A stretch of DNA of 64,000 nucleotides from Williamsia limnetica (GTDB lineage: Bacteria; Actinomycetota; Actinomycetes; Mycobacteriales; Mycobacteriaceae), in contig NZ_QJSP01000003.1 of assembly GCF_003217475.1 (NCBI RefSeq), positions 62,001 through 126,000 on the forward strand, given 5' to 3'. Below are positions 28,055 through 37,226 of the stretch, one piece after another; position 1 is the stretch's first letter; each line of letters starts with the position of its first letter. The notes beneath the pieces are model-generated. The model did not search any database. It had not been told where the DNA came from and saw only the letters and a list, made by a program, of their open reading frames with translations. The position numbers and the translations under genes are program-made.

Positions 28055-30217
28055 ATGACCCCCATCACCACCCGCAGCGTGTGCAACCTCTGTGAGGCGA
28101 TCTGCGGCCTGCAGGTCACCGTCGACGCGGGCAAGGTCACCGATATCCGCGGAGATCGGGACGACCCGCTCTCCCGTGGGCACATCTGCCCCAAGGCAAC
28201 CGCACTGACCGACCTGCACCTCGACCCCGATCGGCTGCGCACACCGCTGCGCAAGACGGCGGACGGGGGCTGGGAGGACATCAGCTGGAAGGCCGCGGCG
28301 ACCCTGGTCGCCGACAAGATCGTGTCGACACAGGAGAAGTACGGGCGCGACGGCGTCGCCGTCTACACCGGCAACCCCAACGTGCACAGCCTCGGATTCG
28401 TCACCCACGGTGTGCCGTTCCTCGGTGCGTTGGGCACCCGAAACATGTTCTCGGCCACCTCCGCCGACCAGTTGCCGATACAGCTGACCGCACATCTGAT
28501 GTACGGCCATCAGTTGCAGATACCGATTCCCGACCTCGACCACACCGATCATCTGCTCATCATCGGCGCCAACCCCGTCGTCTCGAACGGGTCGATGATG
28601 ACGGCGCCGGATTTCCGCAACCGGATGCGTGAGCTGCGTCGCCGCGGCGGCAGGTTGGTGGTGATCGACCCGCGCCGCACCGAGACCGCCGCCATCGCCG
28701 ACGAGCATCACTACGTTCGCCCCGGCACCGATGCCGCCCTGCTGCTCGCGGTGCTGCACGTGCTGGTCCACGAAGCGGGCGTCGACGACAAGCGCATCGC
28801 GCACCTCCCCCTCGCCGGACTCGATGAGCTCGAGGCCGCATGTCGCAGTACGACCCCGGAGTGGGCCGCACCCCTCACGGGTGTCGACGCCGAGGACATA
28901 CGCTCGATCGCCACCGATTTCGCCGCGGCCGAGCGCGCAGTCGCGTACGGGCGGATGGGGGTCTCCACCCAGCAGTTCGGCACCTTGTGCCAGTGGGCGA
29001 TCCAGGCCATCAACGCGGTCACCGGCAACCTCGACCGTGTCGGCGGAGCCCTGCTGACCGATCCGGAGATCGACCTGGTGGCACGCAAACTCAGCGGCCG
29101 GGGACATTTCGACAAGTGGCGCAGCCGGGTTCGCGATCTCCCGGAGTTCGGCGGAGAGCTCCCGGTCTCGACGTTGGCCGACGAGATCTCCACGCCGGGC
29201 GAGCGGCAGATCAAGACACTGATAACCGTGGCCGGAAACCCCGTGTCGTCGTCACCCGGCGGCAGCGGCCTGGACGAGGCGCTCGCCGGCCTCGACTTCA
29301 TGGTGTCCATCGACTTCTACGTCAACGAGACGACTCGGCACGCCGATCTCATCTTGCCACCGACGATGATCTTCGAACGCGACCACTATGACCTGATCTT
29401 TCACCAACTCGCAGTGCACAATTCGGCTCGCTTCTCCCCCGCAGTCGTCGAGAAGTCCGCAGGCGCGAAACACGATTGGGAGATTTTCCGCGATCTGACC
29501 TCGGCGATCGCACGTCGACGAGCGACCTCGCATGGTCGGGGGATCAACGCCCTCAGACGCCGGGCCGCGGGAATGCCGGCACAGGTCAAGTCGAGGGCCC
29601 GATCGCGTGCGACCCCACGCACCCTGCTCGCGCTACTACTGCGGACCGGACCGGGCAAGCTCACCCTGTCGGCCTTGCTCCGGTCACCGTCCGGTGTCGA
29701 CCTGGGCCCGCTACGGCCAGGGCTGCGAGGCAAGCTGGTCGCCAAGTCGGGTGCAGTGCAGTTGGCACCGCCCCTGCTACTGGCGGATCTGGACCGCCTG
29801 CACACCGACCTCGTCAGCATCGCCGACGGACAGTTGCTGTTGATCGGCCGCAGGCACCTGAGGTCGAACAACTCTTGGATGAACAACTCGCCGAGGCTGT
29901 CGAAAGGCCAAGCCCGACATCACCTGCTCATGCACCCCAAGGACCTCGCGGGGTGTGGACTGAGCACGGGCGATCGCGCGGTGTTGCGTTCGCGCGCAGG
30001 CAGTGTCACCGTCACGGTCGCCGAGACCGACGACATCATGCCCGGCGTGGTCAGCCTGCCCCATGGCTTCGGTCAGCGACGGTCCGGTGTCCGTCTGGCC
30101 GTGGCCGGGCAGGTCGACGCACCATCGGCGAATGATGTCACCGACCCCATGCACCTCGACACGGTCTCCGGCAACGCCGTCCTCAACGGCGTGCCGGTGA
30201 CCGTGTCCCCGTCCTGA
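28055..30217 (+). CDS. Molybdopterin oxidoreductase with one 4Fe-4S cluster
   Basis: A DMSO-reductase family molybdoenzyme of 720 residues. The N-terminal 4Fe-4S motif is Cys10, Cys13, Cys17 and Cys45, followed by the bis-MGD binding domains and a C-terminal molybdopterin dinucleotide domain (NNSWMNNSPRL and SLPHGFGQ blocks). There is no Tat signal, so it should be cytoplasmic. The place where formate dehydrogenases and nitrate reductases carry the Mo-ligand Cys or Sec reads SATSADQLP, with Asp138 the only charged candidate. No electron-transfer subunit or cofactor gene is adjacent. The reaction is unknown. Confidence 0.85.
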   Translation: MTPITTRSVCNLCEAICGLQVTVDAGKVTDIRGDRDDPLSRGHICPKATALTDLHLDPDRLRTPLRKTADGGWEDISWKAAATLVADKIVSTQEKYGRDGVAVYTGNPNVHSLGFVTHGVPFLGALGTRNMFSATSADQLPIQLTAHLMYGHQLQIPIPDLDHTDHLLIIGANPVVSNGSMMTAPDFRNRMRELRRRGGRLVVIDPRRTETAAIADEHHYVRPGTDAALLLAVLHVLVHEAGVDDKRIAHLPLAGLDELEAACRSTTPEWAAPLTGVDAEDIRSIATDFAAAERAVAYGRMGVSTQQFGTLCQWAIQAINAVTGNLDRVGGALLTDPEIDLVARKLSGRGHFDKWRSRVRDLPEFGGELPVSTLADEISTPGERQIKTLITVAGNPVSSSPGGSGLDEALAGLDFMVSIDFYVNETTRHADLILPPTMIFERDHYDLIFHQLAVHNSARFSPAVVEKSAGAKHDWEIFRDLTSAIARRRATSHGRGINALRRRAAGMPAQVKSRARSRATPRTLLALLLRTGPGKLTLSALLRSPSGVDLGPLRPGLRGKLVAKSGAVQLAPPLLLADLDRLHTDLVSIADGQLLLIGRRHLRSNNSWMNNSPRLSKGQARHHLLMHPKDLAGCGLSTGDRAVLRSRAGSVTVTVAETDDIMPGVVSLPHGFGQRRSGVRLAVAGQVDAPSANDVTDPMHLDTVSGNAVLNGVPVTVSPS

Positions 30218-31837: not shown

Positions 31838-32413
31838 ATGAGTGTCAAAGATGTCAGCGCGACCAAGCAGCGGATCATCGATGCGGCCCGCACGGAGTTC
31901 GCTGATCACGGCCTTGCCGGGGCACGTATCGACCGAATCGCCACCACCGCCAGAGCCAGCAAAGAGCGGCTGTACGCGTACTACGGCGACAAGGAGTCAC
32001 TGTTCCACGCGATCCTCGATGAAGACTTCGGCCGTTTCCTCGACTCCGTCCCTTTCGACTCGGACGACCTGCCGGGGTATGCGGTCGCGGTGTTCGACGA
32101 TCTCCGCCGCACACCGCACATACAGCGGCTGATGCTGTGGGGCCAGCTACAGGGCCAGTCCGCTCGCGCACAGCGGCTGGCAAATGCGAATCCGCGCTGG
32201 GATGTCCGCCTCGAAGCAATCCGGCGCGCCCAGTCCGCTCAGATCATCGGGCCCACGTGGGACCCCACCGACGTACTGACGGTGATCTTCGGGATCGTCT
32301 CCAGTTGGGTGATCACGCCCGGGTCCGATGGGAACATCGACATTGCCCCCGAAGAGTTGGAGCGCAGGCGCGAGATCGTCCGGGACGCCGTTCGCGCGAT
32401 TTTTCAGGGCTGA
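31838..32413 (+). CDS. TetR family regulator of the divergent efflux pump
   Basis: A 191-residue TetR protein. The HTH is at about residues 8-55, with RIDRIATTARASKERLYAYYGDKESLF as recognition region, and the C-terminal domain resembles TetR_C groups seen next to DHA2 pumps. The ATG at 31838 lies 7 nt after a -10 box, so the mRNA is probably leaderless. It should bind the perfect palindrome at 31803-31822 and be released by a pump substrate. Confidence 0.9.
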   Translation: MSVKDVSATKQRIIDAARTEFADHGLAGARIDRIATTARASKERLYAYYGDKESLFHAILDEDFGRFLDSVPFDSDDLPGYAVAVFDDLRRTPHIQRLMLWGQLQGQSARAQRLANANPRWDVRLEAIRRAQSAQIIGPTWDPTDVLTVIFGIVSSWVITPGSDGNIDIAPEELERRREIVRDAVRAIFQG

Positions 32414-32438: not shown

Positions 32439-32562
32439 AGTTTTCCGCCCAGACAGTCTCCGCCCAGACAGTTTTCCGCCCTGAGAGTTTTTCGCCCTGA
32501 CAGTTTCCGCACTGACAGTTTCCGCACTGACAGTTTTCCGCTTCAACAGTTTTCACCGAAGC
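32439..32562. repeat. About eight degenerate 15-16 bp tandem repeats
   Basis: Units begin at 32439, 32455, 32470, 32486, 32502, 32517, 32532 and 32548 with consensus AGTTTTCCGCCCTGAC. Units 5 and 6 are identical, others differ by one to four bases, and the last is weakest. Length alternates between 15 and 16 bp because of T-run changes, so the array is not coding in a single frame. It fills the gap between the TetR stop and the amidase start. Confidence 0.92.
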
Positions 32563-32599: not shown

Positions 32600-33475
32600 A
32601 TGAGCGCACAGGAAGCCGGCGGGGCAAACGAGGGGCGCACATCCGTGCGGGCCGCCATCGTCCAGACCAATTGGACCGGCGATCGCGAATCCATGGTCGC
32701 CGCCCACATCGATCATGCCCGTGAGGCCGCGGCCCAGGGTGCACAGATCATCGGCTTCCAAGAAGTGTTCAACGCCCCCTACTTCTGCCAGGTGCAGGAC
32801 TCGAGATACTACGAGTTCGCCGAGTCCATCCCCGGCCCGACCATCGACACGTTCTGCACACTTGCCAGAGAACTGGCGATGGTGATGGTGGTTCCCATCT
32901 ACGAACGCGAGCAGGACGGAGTCCTTTACAACACCGCGGCGGTGATCGATGCCGACGGCGCACTTCTGGGCAAGTACCGCAAACATCACATCCCCCAGGT
33001 CAAGGGATTCTGGGAGAAGTTCTACTTCAAACCCGGCAATCTCGGTTGGCCCGTCTTCGACACCGCCGTCGGGAAGGTCGGGGTGTACATCTGCTACGAC
33101 CGCCACTTCCCTGAAGGATGGCGGGCCCTGGGGTTGGCAGGTGCGCAAATAGTCTTCAATCCCTCTGCCACCAGCCGAGGCCTGTCGAGCTATCTGTGGA
33201 AGCTGGAACAGCCCGCGGCCGCCGTCGCCAATGAGTATTTCGTCGCGGCGATCAACAGGGTGGGCATCGAATCCGAGTACGGCGACGACGACTTCTACGG
33301 AACAAGTTATTTCGTCGACCCAGAGGGGAAGTTCGTCGGCGACGTCGCCTCTGACCAGGATCCGGAGTTGGTTGTCCGCGACCTCGACCTGAGTCTGATC
33401 AGAACTGTGCGTGACCGCTGGGCGTTCTATCGAGATCGCCGACCTGACGCGTACGGAATCCTCACCGAACCTTGA
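32600..33475 (+). CDS. Nitrilase-superfamily amidohydrolase, probable N-carbamoyl-beta-alanine amidohydrolase
   Basis: A C-N hydrolase of 291 residues with the catalytic triad Glu55 (FQEVFNAPYF), Lys128 (KYRKHHIP) and Cys165 (YICYDRHFPEGWR). The long insert VKGFWEKFYFKPG and the overall text are those of beta-ureidopropionase, which releases beta-alanine, CO2 and ammonia in the last step of reductive uracil breakdown. The next gene is a dihydropyrimidinase, 31 bp downstream, supporting this role. The promoter must lie in or after the tandem repeats at 32439-32562. N-carbamoyl D-amino acid hydrolysis is an alternative. Confidence 0.9.
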   Translation: MSAQEAGGANEGRTSVRAAIVQTNWTGDRESMVAAHIDHAREAAAQGAQIIGFQEVFNAPYFCQVQDSRYYEFAESIPGPTIDTFCTLARELAMVMVVPIYEREQDGVLYNTAAVIDADGALLGKYRKHHIPQVKGFWEKFYFKPGNLGWPVFDTAVGKVGVYICYDRHFPEGWRALGLAGAQIVFNPSATSRGLSSYLWKLEQPAAAVANEYFVAAINRVGIESEYGDDDFYGTSYFVDPEGKFVGDVASDQDPELVVRDLDLSLIRTVRDRWAFYRDRRPDAYGILTEP

Positions 33476-33506
33476 GCACGACCACCGCATACACCGAGGA
33501 GTAGCT

Positions 33507-34928
33507 GTGTCGACCACATTCATCCATGGCGGCACCGTCGTGTCGCCCACCGGTAGCCAACTGCTCGACGTCCTGGTCGACGACGGCACCATCGTGGCTG
33601 TGCTGCAACCTGGTTCGACGGCACTGGCCACCGATCTGGCCGGGTCTGCCGACATCGCGATCGACGCCACCGGCAAATACGTGATACCCGGCGGAGTGGA
33701 CGGCCACACCCATATGGAGATGCCCTTCGGCGGCACCTTCGCCTCGGACACCTTCGAAACCGGCACCCGGGCCGCTGCCTGGGGCGGCACCACCACCATC
33801 GTGGACTTCGCGGTGCAGAATCCGGGCATGCGCATCCAGGACACCGTCGCGGCCTGGCACGACAAGGCTGCGGGCAACTGCGCCATCGACTACGGATTCC
33901 ACCAGATAATCGGTGGCGTCGACGCCGAATCGCTCAAGGGGATGGCCGAACTCGTCGACGAGGGCATCACGAGCTTCAAGCTGTTCATGGCCTACCCTGG
34001 CGTCTTCTACTCCGACGACGGTCAGATCGTGCGGGCCATGCAGGAGGCCGCGGGACTCGGCGCGCTGCTGATGATGCACGCCGAGAACGGCATAGCGATC
34101 GACGTGCTGGTGGAGCAGGCACTCGCGCGCGGCGACACGGCGCCCTACTTTCACGGGACATCTCGGGCATGGCAACTGGAGGAAGAGGCCACCCATCGCG
34201 CGATCATGCTCGCCCAGCTGACCGGCGCCCCGCTCTACATCGTTCACGTCTCGGCGAAGCAGGCCCTCGCCCAGATCGCGGAAGCACGGGGTGAAGGACA
34301 GAACGTCTTCGGGGAGACGTGCCCCCAATATCTCTATCTCTCACTCGAAGAGCAGCTGGGAGCACCGGGTTTCGAGGGCGCCAAGTGGGTGTGTTCCACC
34401 CCGCTGCGGTCCCGCGAAGAAGGCCACCAGGACGAACTCTGGCGCTATATCCGGACCGGCGATGTCGCGACCGTCGCCACCGACCACTGCCCGTTCTGTA
34501 TGAAGGGTCAAAAAGACTTGGGCGTCGACAATTTCGCAAACATCCCGAACGGGATCGGGTCGGTGGAACATCGCATGGACCTGATGTTCCAGGGCGTGAA
34601 GGACGGCCGAATCTCACTGGAACGCTGGGTTGATGTCTGCGCGACGACGCCGGCCAAGATGTTCGGGATGTACCCCCGCAAAGGCATCATCTCACCGGGT
34701 GCCGATGCCGACATCGTGATATATGATCCCAACGGACACACCAGCATCGGGCTCGAGAAGACCCATCACATGAACATGGACTACTCGGCCTATGAGGGTT
34801 ACGAGATCGAGGGTCACGTCGACACAGTGCTCTCGAAAGGCTCCGTGATCATCGATCGGAACGAGTACCTGGGAACCAAGGGACACGGCAGCTTCGTCAA
34901 ACGCGGATTGTCCCAAAACCTCATCTGA
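33507..34928 (+). CDS. hydA: Dihydropyrimidinase/hydantoinase
   Basis: A zinc amidohydrolase of 473 residues that opens the ring of dihydrouracil, dihydrothymine or hydantoins. Metal ligands visible are His67 and His69 (DGHTHMEMPFGG), carboxylated Lys158 (ITSFKLFMAYPG), His191 (MMHAENG), His247 (IVHVSA) and Asp326 (VATDHCPF). Length is normal. The GTG at 33507 has a GAGGAG site. It sits between the ureidopropionase-type amidase and the LLM enzyme, and the three genes form an operon with gaps of 31 and 44 bp. Confidence 0.93.
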   Translation: MSTTFIHGGTVVSPTGSQLLDVLVDDGTIVAVLQPGSTALATDLAGSADIAIDATGKYVIPGGVDGHTHMEMPFGGTFASDTFETGTRAAAWGGTTTIVDFAVQNPGMRIQDTVAAWHDKAAGNCAIDYGFHQIIGGVDAESLKGMAELVDEGITSFKLFMAYPGVFYSDDGQIVRAMQEAAGLGALLMMHAENGIAIDVLVEQALARGDTAPYFHGTSRAWQLEEEATHRAIMLAQLTGAPLYIVHVSAKQALAQIAEARGEGQNVFGETCPQYLYLSLEEQLGAPGFEGAKWVCSTPLRSREEGHQDELWRYIRTGDVATVATDHCPFCMKGQKDLGVDNFANIPNGIGSVEHRMDLMFQGVKDGRISLERWVDVCATTPAKMFGMYPRKGIISPGADADIVIYDPNGHTSIGLEKTHHMNMDYSAYEGYEIEGHVDTVLSKGSVIIDRNEYLGTKGHGSFVKRGLSQNLI

Positions 34929-34972
34929 AGGCGCGACCTCACCCGATTCACCGACCGGACCCCGGAGAAACC

Positions 34973-36061
34973 ATGGATATCGGCGTAGTACTGCAGTGTG
35001 ATCCACCGGCCCTACGACTCGTCGACCTCGCCGTCCGCGCAGAGGCCCTCGGCTTCTCGCATGTGTGGACCTTCGACTCGCATCTACTCTGGCAAGAACC
35101 GTTCGTGATCCACTCGGCCATCCTCGGGGCGACCAGAAAGGTCACGGTAGGGCCGATGGTCACCAACCCGGCCAATCGCGATTGGACCGTCATCGCAAGC
35201 ACTTTCGCTACCCTGAACGACCTGTACGGCAACCGCAGCATCTGCGGCATCGGACGCGGAGACTCCGCAGTACGGACCCTCAACGGCAAACCGGCGACCC
35301 TGGCAACGCTGCGCGAGGCCATCCATGTCATCCGGGAACTGGCCAATTCTCGTTACGCGGACTACGGCGGTCGCAGGCTCCGATTCCCGTGGAGCCACGG
35401 GTCCGAACTCGAACTGTGGGTGGCCGCGTACGGGCCCAAGGCCCTCGAACTGACCGGCCAGGTCGCCGATGGCTACATCTTGCAGCTCGGCGACCCCGAC
35501 ATCGCGGCATGGACCATCGGGCGGGTCCGCGAGGCTGCCGAGGCCTCCGGCAGGGATCCCATGGCGATCAAGTTCTGTGTTGCCGCACCGGCATACGTGA
35601 CCAAGGACAACAGCCCCGAGTCGATGGCGCTGGCTCGGGATCAGTGTCGCTGGTTCGGCGGGATGGTGGGCAACCACGTCGCCGACCTGGTGAAGCGTTA
35701 CGGTACGGAGGGCGAGGTACCCGCCGCGCTGACCGACTATGTCGTCGGCAGGGCAGGATACGACTACAACGACCACGGAAAGGTCGGGACGTCGCACACC
35801 GACTATGTTCCCGACGAGATCGTCGACCGGTTCTGCATCCTCGGCACCCCTGCCGACCACCTCGCCAAACTCGAAGTGCTCCGGCAGATCGGTGTCGATC
35901 AATTCGCGGTGTATCTCCAGCACAATGACAAACGCGCGACCTTGGAATCATACGGGGAGAACATCATTCCAGCACTGCACCCACCCGTGCAGGCGATCGA
36001 GGACATCACCTCGACGCACCTTCAGTCGGAGGCGGCGATCAGCAACCCTCACTCTCGATGA
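34973..36061 (+). CDS. LLM-class flavin/F420-dependent oxidoreductase (TIGR03842-like)
   Basis: A luciferase-like TIM-barrel oxidoreductase of 362 residues, resembling the TIGR03842 group of F420-dependent enzymes. Visible blocks are WTFDSHLLWQEPF, VGPMVTNPANRDWTV, GIGRGDSAVRTLNG, and VADGYILQLGDPD. It is the third gene of the pyrimidine-type operon, where no classical dihydropyrimidine dehydrogenase is present, so it may carry out the redox step on the pyrimidine or hydantoin substrate; this is inference. Its 3' end overlaps the convergent oxygenase gene by 23 bp. Confidence 0.85.
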   Translation: MDIGVVLQCDPPALRLVDLAVRAEALGFSHVWTFDSHLLWQEPFVIHSAILGATRKVTVGPMVTNPANRDWTVIASTFATLNDLYGNRSICGIGRGDSAVRTLNGKPATLATLREAIHVIRELANSRYADYGGRRLRFPWSHGSELELWVAAYGPKALELTGQVADGYILQLGDPDIAAWTIGRVREAAEASGRDPMAIKFCVAAPAYVTKDNSPESMALARDQCRWFGGMVGNHVADLVKRYGTEGEVPAALTDYVVGRAGYDYNDHGKVGTSHTDYVPDEIVDRFCILGTPADHLAKLEVLRQIGVDQFAVYLQHNDKRATLESYGENIIPALHPPVQAIEDITSTHLQSEAAISNPHSR

Positions 36062-37046
36062 TCGGGGAACCCTCCAGCCGCGCGAAGCGCGAGACCGCCA
36101 GATTGCACAGACCCTGCAGTCGGCAGAGCCAGCGGTCGGTACCGTCCCATCTCGCGGCGAAGGAACTGCGGCCGTGGATGGCTCGGCTGTTGTCGATGAT
36201 GAACAGGTCGCCGGGACCGAGCACGACCTTGCTGCGGTGGGTCGCCCACACGCCCTTGACCGCGGCCAGCGCAGCGGCGTGTTGTGGACTGTCGGTCGAC
36301 ATGAGATCTTCGTCGTAGGTGATGACAGGGTCGTTCCACGAGCCGCTGAGCACCGGGATGGGTCCGCGGACCTCGTCCGGCACACCGCCGTCGACGAACG
36401 AGCCGTCGACGCGTGTGTGGAAGACGGGATCACGTAGCAGTCGAGCGGTCTCAGCGGGCAGCTGCCGTTGCAGCTCGCGGGCCGACAGCAGGTACGTCGC
36501 GGCATTTCGGTCGCCGCGTAGACAACCGAGTGCGATGAAATCCGGACGCGACACCATGTTGTGGCACTGCTCGGTATGGCTCTCAAGGTCGACCGCGCTG
36601 CCGGTGGAGGTCTGTCGGCGCTGGTGGCTGCGGATCGGCACCAGGGTCTGGACGAGCTCTCCGCGACATTCCGGCCGGTATCCCACCAGATGCACGATGC
36701 TCGACAACAGCACCGCCGACTGTTTCGCCACGTCCGTATGGCGCGTCGGGGCGTCGACCGGCGAGTCCGGCGTCGACGAGATCGCACCGACCTCCAGGCC
36801 GCTGAGCATCAGACCGCCATCGCCGTCGACCAGGAAATCGAGCAGCAACTCGCGAACGGCTGCCGGCAGCAGCGCCGCCGCGAGTCTGGCCTGCCTGGCG
36901 AAGGCTTGCGGATCGTCCAGGGAGTCGGCTTGGACATTCTGCGCGATCATGCCGATGACCTGGCGGTATTCATCGACGGGGACATGTTTGACGGTTGGCC
37001 AGGACGCCCCTGGGTTCCATCCTGGATTCGTGTGTGCACTCATCAT
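36039..37046 (-). CDS. TauD/AsnO-like Fe(II)/2-oxoglutarate amino acid oxygenase
   Basis: A clavaminate synthase/asparagine oxygenase-type dioxygenase of 335 residues. The first iron ligands are His157 and Glu159 in LESHTEQCHN; using Glu instead of Asp is characteristic of the AsnO/VioC subgroup that beta-hydroxylates free L-Asn or L-Arg. The distal ligands are in NSRAIHGRSSFAARWDG with a later WLCRL arginine. The ATG at 37046 has GGAGGG 7 nt upstream. No peptide synthetase is nearby, so the product is not obviously part of a non-ribosomal peptide. It is a single gene, convergent with the LLM gene. Confidence 0.82.
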   Translation of the reverse strand: MMSAHTNPGWNPGASWPTVKHVPVDEYRQVIGMIAQNVQADSLDDPQAFARQARLAAALLPAAVRELLLDFLVDGDGGLMLSGLEVGAISSTPDSPVDAPTRHTDVAKQSAVLLSSIVHLVGYRPECRGELVQTLVPIRSHQRRQTSTGSAVDLESHTEQCHNMVSRPDFIALGCLRGDRNAATYLLSARELQRQLPAETARLLRDPVFHTRVDGSFVDGGVPDEVRGPIPVLSGSWNDPVITYDEDLMSTDSPQHAAALAAVKGVWATHRSKVVLGPGDLFIIDNSRAIHGRSSFAARWDGTDRWLCRLQGLCNLAVSRFARLEGSPIIESEGC

Positions 37047-37226
37047 GAGATTGCCCTCCGATCCGTAGGTCGACGCATTACCAACAGCGTAATGCGCAAC
37101 ACCGGTTCGCACATCGCAACAAATGCGGCGAATTGGTCACCGCGATGAGTTCATGTCGCCGTCGGGGTCTACCTTTCGACCGCCACCGAACCATCGAGCG
37201 CACGGCACCAACCCGAGGAGCCCACC

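Follow-up and report, generated by a model that had tools for sequence, protein, structure and literature searches.

We examined three consecutive genes in a 64,000-nucleotide stretch of Williamsia limnetica DNA, which is called the window throughout. The genes lie at positions 32600-36061, all on the + strand with gaps of 31 and 44 bases, and encode an amidase, a dihydropyrimidinase and an oxidoreductase of the luciferase-like monooxygenase (LLM) family. Judging from gene families and context, the three are likely to form a short operon for reductive pyrimidine degradation, in which the LLM protein would be an F420H2-dependent uracil/thymine reductase that replaces the usual iron-sulfur flavoprotein, PreA. 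The genes are as follows.

32600..33475, + strand: amidase of the nitrilase superfamily, probable beta-ureidopropionase (Pfam CN_hydrolase, 235 bits; E55/K128/C165; solved relatives)
33507..34928, + strand: dihydropyrimidinase / D-hydantoinase (TIGR02033, 544 bits; motifs; start chosen behind GGAG)
34973..36061, + strand: LLM-family oxidoreductase, proposed F420H2-dependent uracil/thymine reductase (TIGR03842, 552 bits; F420-enzyme-like fold and sequence; gene context)

The three enzymes and their genome

In the translated amidase (291 amino acids), the triad residues Glu55, Lys128 and Cys165, which the original prediction from the DNA letters had named, are confirmed in place. The best matches among solved structures are CG3027-PA (2vhh, 188 bits), an insect protein that is a Drosophila beta-alanine synthase, an N-carbamoylputrescine amidohydrolase (5h8i, 185 bits) and a beta-ureidopropionase (8pt4, 180 bits); against the AguB model the protein scores 245.9 bits, with a cut-off of 410. 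On these scores the amidase family is clear and the substrate is not fixed, because beta-alanine synthase-type and N-carbamoylputrescine amidohydrolase structures score nearly alike. The dihydropyrimidinase exceeds the TIGR02033 cut-off of 393 bits. Its longest reading frame opens at 33411, and the likely start is the GTG at 33507 behind a GGAG, with the end at 34928. It was said to hold a full metal set, and GHTH, FKLF, MHAENG, VHVS and ATDH, the motifs that carry the metal ligands, are all found.

The third gene had been described as an LLM-class oxidoreductase directly after the dihydropyrimidinase, and it is precisely that: it follows after 44 bases on the same strand, and its product of 362 amino acids matches TIGR03842 (F420_CPS_4043) over residues 2-335, well above the cut-off of 295 bits. 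NCBI names this family by number only, as an F420-dependent LLM oxidoreductase. The sole Pfam match is Bac_luciferase (210 bits), whereas PreA and PydA are proteins of the dihydroorotate dehydrogenase type with flavin mononucleotide (FMN) and iron-sulfur clusters, an architecture that the LLM protein does not have. A PHROGs search with it returned nothing informative. The closest solved sequences are those of Mer (1z69, 8qpl). A structure was predicted from an alignment of 34 sequences, for which 33 loci were chosen from the 80 scan loci described below, with a mean predicted local distance difference test (pLDDT) score of 86.7 and a predicted TM-score (pTM) of 0.85. Its best fold match is the F420-dependent Mer 1z69, solved with F420, at TM-scores of 0.73 and 0.81; the first 18 places in the ranking are taken by Mer, FGD (FGD2, FGD1) or Adf, and flavin luciferases and monooxygenases appear from rank 19 down. 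Mer, the nearest solved protein in sequence and fold, is likewise an F420-binding LLM barrel. The window protein differs from it in scoring too low for either Mer model (119.6 bits with a cut-off of 276 for NF002619 and 109.1 bits with a cut-off of 348.7 for TIGR03555), and its Val6 aligns with Glu6, the position altered in the Mer mutant entry E6Q; that Glu6 is important in Mer we infer from the title of that entry. Fifteen residues are kept in at least 118 of 121 family sequences, a count that excludes L119, L066, L142 and L072 with their split or short matches: D35, S36, R69, R95, D97, W140, Q171, W227, N234, H235, D238, Y256, R260, Y265 and H268. The LLM protein belongs to TIGR03842 and sits nearest to F420 enzymes by sequence and by fold, and its use of F420 is predicted.

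The original prediction had named a dihydropyrimidine dehydrogenase encoded in another part of the genome as the finding that would speak against a replacement, and none was found when the whole genome (6.35 Mb in 52 contigs, rated 100% complete) was searched: the best match to the PreA model reached 40.7 bits against a cut-off of 335. The search means were the PreA model and Fer4_20 only; in 14 control genomes, the PreA cut-off was reached in two, E. coli and Deinobacterium chartae. Of the three weak PreA matches in the genome, one was read as a class 2 PyrD, one as a DusB-type protein and one as a complex I region, and two PreT-like (Fer4_20) proteins, each adjoining a glutamate-synthase large-subunit gene, were read as GltD. 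A second set of genes (L036) lies about 220 kb away on the same contig (C3, 311000-328000) and comprises a Xan_ur_permease, a dihydropyrimidinase, an LLM protein, a carbamoylase and a class III aminotransferase. Its dihydropyrimidinase is 77% and its LLM protein 67% identical to the window copy, and its carbamoylase is of the M20 type (TIGR01879, 285 bits, cut-off 204). For the F420 pathway, a CofG match of 466 bits is present on contig C15 at about 82341-83330 (L170, L212).

Distribution of the LLM gene and its neighbours

In the samples of the order and of the phylum, LLM and dihydropyrimidinase occur together. Among 200 sampled genomes, the LLM gene occurs in 44 and dihydropyrimidinase in 48; both are present in 42, LLM alone in 2, dihydropyrimidinase alone in 6 and neither in 150, and no genome of the 200 has PreA above its cut-off. 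The two LLM-only genomes, G153 and G165, are 79% and 76% complete. A dihydropyrimidinase lies within 300 bases on the same strand for 42 of the 46 LLM matches and within 3 kb for 44, and on the former figure we reject local chance as the explanation of the pairing. Here 46 of 47 LLM rows were used; the omitted row is the latter part of a match that was split in two in G033. In the phylum sample of 346 genomes, 72 have LLM and 103 have dihydropyrimidinase (both in 68, LLM only in 4, dihydropyrimidinase only in 35); PreA occurs in two genomes, neither with LLM. Two dihydropyrimidinase rows of this sample that fell below the cut-off were omitted, both genomes still being counted through other rows. 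When the 76 LLM matches of this sample are considered, a same-strand dihydropyrimidinase lies within 300 bases in 21 cases and within 10 kb in 52, and there is none on the same contig and strand in 19. LLM and PreA thus seem to alternate in the actinobacterial samples.

The neighbouring genes were clustered over 44 loci and the window with a simple gene-calling script, so the counts are rough. LLM was found in 39, dihydropyrimidinase in 38, amidase in 20, an NCS1 nucleobase symporter in 18, a class III aminotransferase in 16, PucR in 11, a subtilisin-inhibitor-like protein in 9 and a methylmalonate-semialdehyde-type dehydrogenase in 8. Among the named neighbours kept in at least 8 loci, the only oxidoreductases are LLM and the aldehyde dehydrogenase. 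A further 20 LLM loci of the phylum, picked for a dihydropyrimidinase on the same contig, which is therefore present by selection, hold an amidase or carbamoylase in 19 cases, an aminotransferase in 16, a nucleobase- or NMT1-type transporter in 14 and an aldehyde dehydrogenase in 7. Since symporter, aminotransferase, aldehyde dehydrogenase and PucR would supply the other parts of the pathway, only the first reductase is left without a known enzyme; to judge by these gene families, the reductive pathway is complete at the related loci but for its known first enzyme.

As a control, dihydropyrimidinase loci were fetched from 20 of the 35 phylum genomes that have dihydropyrimidinase without LLM, some of the stretches ending at contig ends. 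In 18 of the 20 there was no match to an amidase, carbamoylase, aminotransferase, transporter or aldehyde dehydrogenase; these 18 are probably not pyrimidine operons, because the other pathway genes were not found beside dihydropyrimidinase. Among them, L201 has a weak LLM match of 72 bits and L210 a CofD-type match. The remaining two are L206, with a weak amidase match (128 bits), and L208, in the PreA genome G401, where dihydropyrimidinase, carbamoylase and PreA stand together. In the control set, L206 excepted, the downstream genes accompany either LLM or PreA. The loci L192-L211 other than L208 are dihydropyrimidinase-like genes from several actinobacterial families that stand without other pathway genes. 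An exception among the six genomes of the order with dihydropyrimidinase alone is G095, with a dihydropyrimidinase of 583 bits and neither LLM nor PreA in the genome. Its locus (L082, C12:227000-244000) also holds a second amidohydrolase together with amidase, carbamoylase-like and permease-like genes, and is possibly another ring-opening pathway.

Beyond the phylum, named genomes were scanned with a Leisingera query. More than 586 matches were ranked by likeness to that query and the top 80 kept, so that the set leans to Proteobacteria. Within flanks of up to 9 kb per side, at least two cof genes occur in 41 of the 80 loci, npdG in 43 and dihydropyrimidinase or amidase/carbamoylase in 48, with F420 and pyrimidine genes both present in 26; no PreA match of at least 120 bits lies in the fetched flanks of any of the 80. 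The annotated plasmids of Leisingera and Paracoccus alcaliphilus have the order cofG-cofH-cofD-cofC-cofE-npdG-LLM, where the place of cofD in the latter is annotated by product only. In Proteobacteria, the LLM gene is often the last gene of such a cofGHDCE-npdG F420 operon, and many of these stand beside pyrimidine genes. With TIGR02033, scores of 591-622 bits are reached by the dihydropyrimidinases that adjoin LLM at four loci, those of Paracoccus denitrificans (L086), a marine alphaproteobacterium (L099), a Halomonas (L110) and a Vibrio (L123). In P. denitrificans, the marine alphaproteobacterium, Halomonas and the haloarchaeon Saliphagus (L161), the carbamoylase passes TIGR01879; in Vibrio, the aldehyde dehydrogenase reaches 662 bits with TIGR01722. 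At the Saliphagus locus, LLM is joined by a carbamoylase, an aminotransferase and an aldehyde dehydrogenase, along with a weaker match to dihydropyrimidinase (202 bits). Most Chloroflexota loci combine LLM, dihydropyrimidinase, amidase and aldehyde dehydrogenase, and cof genes are not nearby. Seven loci from Devosiaceae and a Hyphomicrobiales metagenome-assembled genome (L124, L125, L126, L127, L131, L134, L150) show nothing near LLM but a match of the CofE type (114-134 bits), and pyrimidine genes were not found in their fetched flanks.

In the tree of the family, an actinobacterial group stands apart from a group of Proteobacteria and Chloroflexota, and pyrimidine contexts occur in each; therefore the link between LLM and pyrimidine genes is old or has arisen more than once, with the deep branches uncertain. 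The plasmid row L079 sits on a very long branch, the deep joins are unsafe, and the window's label bears no context tag, its neighbours being unscored there.

Proposed reaction and competing explanations

The LLM protein would take over the step of the iron-sulfur flavoprotein PreA/PydA: with F420H2 bound, it would reduce uracil, and probably thymine, at the C5=C6 bond and so yield the dihydropyrimidine; a hydride would pass from F420H2 to C6 and a proton be added at C5. The dihydropyrimidinase would then open the ring, and the amidase would release beta-alanine (or 3-aminoisobutyrate), CO2 and ammonia. We infer the substrate, the cofactor use and the direction from the gene families and their order, the absence of PreA over its cut-off, the co-occurrence and the F420-enzyme fold. 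The original prediction had offered two options, reduction of uracil or thymine with F420H2 and oxidation of a related ring. The first gains comparative support from the co-occurrence, the PreA absence, the F420 operons and the neighbours, and the second fits less well, since in the established pathway it is the reduced pyrimidine ring on which dihydropyrimidinase and ureidopropionase work.

Several observations weigh against this reading. CofH is absent from the CofG frame of the Williamsia genome and was not found by tblastn in the 10 kb around CofG, the only stretch searched; in many actinobacteria the two are fused as halves of FbiC. Most sampled genomes of the organism's own family lack LLM, and among those listed only G000 and G160 carry it. 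The Fisher p values for co-occurrence (3.6e-34 and 1.5e-40) ignore shared ancestry and are descriptive only. In 101 genomes of Halomonadaceae, PreA occurs in 33 and LLM in 5 and no genome has both, a contrast (0 of 5 against 33 of 96) that is not significant (p=0.17). Neither F420 nor pyrimidine genes were seen at 14 of the 80 scan loci, and neither a nucleobase transporter nor an aminotransferase stands beside the window operon. A whole-genome PreA search in 43 genomes chosen from the 80 found PreA over the cut-off in six, namely two Leisingera, Aquamicrobium, Devosia psychrophila, Limimaricola and a Geminicoccaceae, with a match under the cut-off in a seventh, Motiliproteus; two of the six (L128, L143) also have dihydropyrimidinase in the LLM locus. 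Because 6 of 43 LLM genomes also hold PreA, the two are not strictly exclusive. Finally, it cannot be told by the TIGR02033 model whether the second gene encodes a dihydropyrimidinase or a D-hydantoinase.

This last point also bears on an alternative that we regard as unlikely, in which the substrate of the operon is a different cyclic ureide, either a hydantoin or a modified pyrimidine, and it is this ring, not uracil or thymine, that the LLM protein reduces or oxidises. TIGR02033 includes hydantoinases and the top solved match of the window protein is named D-hydantoinase; the missing transporter and aminotransferase would agree with such a substrate, and the two LLM copies of the genome are just 67% identical, so their substrates may differ. 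On the other hand, the NCS1/uracil-type permeases, aminotransferase and malonate-semialdehyde-type dehydrogenase at related loci fit the formation of beta-alanine from uracil, and the apparent alternation of LLM with PreA in the actinobacterial samples also speaks against this alternative. It is less probable still that the LLM protein performs a later step, such as an F420-linked reduction or oxidation of malonate semialdehyde in the manner of Adf, the F420 alcohol dehydrogenase of the superfamily. Adf is a relative by sequence and fold, and a malonic semialdehyde reductase, PydE, is a known extra step in the cited part of PMC7332683, but many loci pair LLM with both an aminotransferase and an aldehyde dehydrogenase, which account for the last reactions of the pathway, and no enzyme would then be left for the first.

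RutA, a pyrimidine oxygenase that opens the uracil ring with oxygen, is also a member of the LLM superfamily, and in this it resembles the proposed enzyme; an FMN-dependent, RutA-like oxygenase that attacks the ring with O2 is nevertheless very improbable here, because it would leave the dihydropyrimidinase without a reduced substrate, the closest relatives use F420 and the gene sits in F420 operons. The LLM protein gives 23 NCBIfam matches at E<=1e-3, and the RutA model (TIGR03612) does not appear in them; no genome-wide search for RutA or barbiturase was made. We give equally little credence to an unrecognised dihydropyrimidine dehydrogenase in these genomes with LLM as an accessory: only the PreA model and Fer4_20 were used and PreA does occur in six LLM genomes, but the PreA search of the Williamsia genome reached PyrD and DusB homologues and nothing else notable, and LLM and the aldehyde dehydrogenase are the sole oxidoreductases among the named conserved neighbours.

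If the LLM protein is an F420H2-dependent uracil reductase, it takes the same place as PreA/PreT, PydA and the ferredoxin-dependent PydAc, which convert uracil to dihydrouracil before dihydropyrimidinase (excerpts of PMC7332683); PydAc is likewise a variant of the first step with another electron donor. Those excerpts describe NAD(P)H- and ferredoxin-dependent PydA variants, and within them F420 and luciferase are not mentioned. In the biosynthesis of mureidomycin and napsamycin, reduction of the uracil C5=C6 bond depends on the gene for a putative F420/FMN oxidoreductase (SSGG-03002 / NpsU); for mureidomycin, the cited part of PMC10714638 ties it to the ring reduction by gene disruption and nuclear magnetic resonance, and reports no activity in vitro. 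It differs from the proposed enzyme in tailoring a bound uracil, and the likeness is by description only. Also by description only, an F420 luciferase-family reductase predicted in Chloroflexota uric acid clusters without YgfK and UacX (PMC12507026, in part) resembles our case in that an LLM protein is predicted to stand in for an iron-sulfur reductase, ahead of a hydrolase, where a ring is reduced; it differs in its predicted substrate, yanthine, and in belonging to a purine pathway. Among the papers listed in searches of the mainly open-licence literature, none proposed TIGR03842 as a uracil reductase, and an earlier publication is possible.

Many bacteria with genes for uracil/thymine breakdown do without the usual iron-sulfur enzyme and have instead an unrelated member of an F420-using family, by which the first step is probably catalysed. 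We lean, with less assurance than for the window operon, towards a wider proposal: that TIGR03842 enzymes are widespread, reduce uracil and thymine with F420H2 and, without being homologous to PreA, take its place in Actinomycetota, Chloroflexota, some Proteobacteria and a haloarchaeon, and that the proteobacterial F420 operon (Halomonas, Vibrio, Marinomonas, Paracoccus) has been kept and spread chiefly for this enzyme. If true, a missing step of reductive uracil degradation would be filled. A reductive uracil pathway with genes only partly identified is described for Mycobacterium smegmatis in the excerpt of PMC4617892. The proposal would also add a reaction to F420 chemistry with a concrete job for F420 in Proteobacteria, could account for the production of so rare a cofactor by some bacteria, and would allow a family known to NCBI by number only to be annotated. 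The excerpt of PMC8498797 reports F420 at trace quantities in two Alphaproteobacteria and within it does not mention uracil or Gammaproteobacteria, and the importance of F420 in haloarchaea is termed enigmatic in that of PMC8305020.

Flanks of the operon

Two features lie upstream of the amidase gene.

31838..32413, + strand: TetR-family regulator (TetR_C_21, 85 bits)
32439..32541, no strand: tandem repeat with a 15-16 base unit (AGTTTTCCGCCCTGAC type), 6.6 copies, in the gap between the TetR gene and the amidase gene

The flanking genes, MFS (major facilitator superfamily) efflux and TetR upstream and a 2-oxoglutarate (2OG)-Fe(II) oxygenase on the opposite strand downstream, do not resemble genes of the pathway. 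The TetR regulator, whose top NCBIfam match is RutR at 37.9 bits, far under the cut-off of 368, is possibly part of the operon. The top NCBIfam match of the oxygenase (36039-37112, - strand) is GntD, an enduracididine beta-hydroxylase, at 167 bits under a cut-off of 345. Further upstream, a molybdopterin oxidoreductase (28055-30217, + strand) has PhsA and formate dehydrogenase alpha as its top NCBIfam matches, under all cut-offs shown. A promoter and terminator scan gave nothing above shuffled sequences. The repeat unit of the AGTTTTCCGCCCTGAC type matches three times in the window against 0.07 expected, and all three matches are inside the array at 32439-32541.

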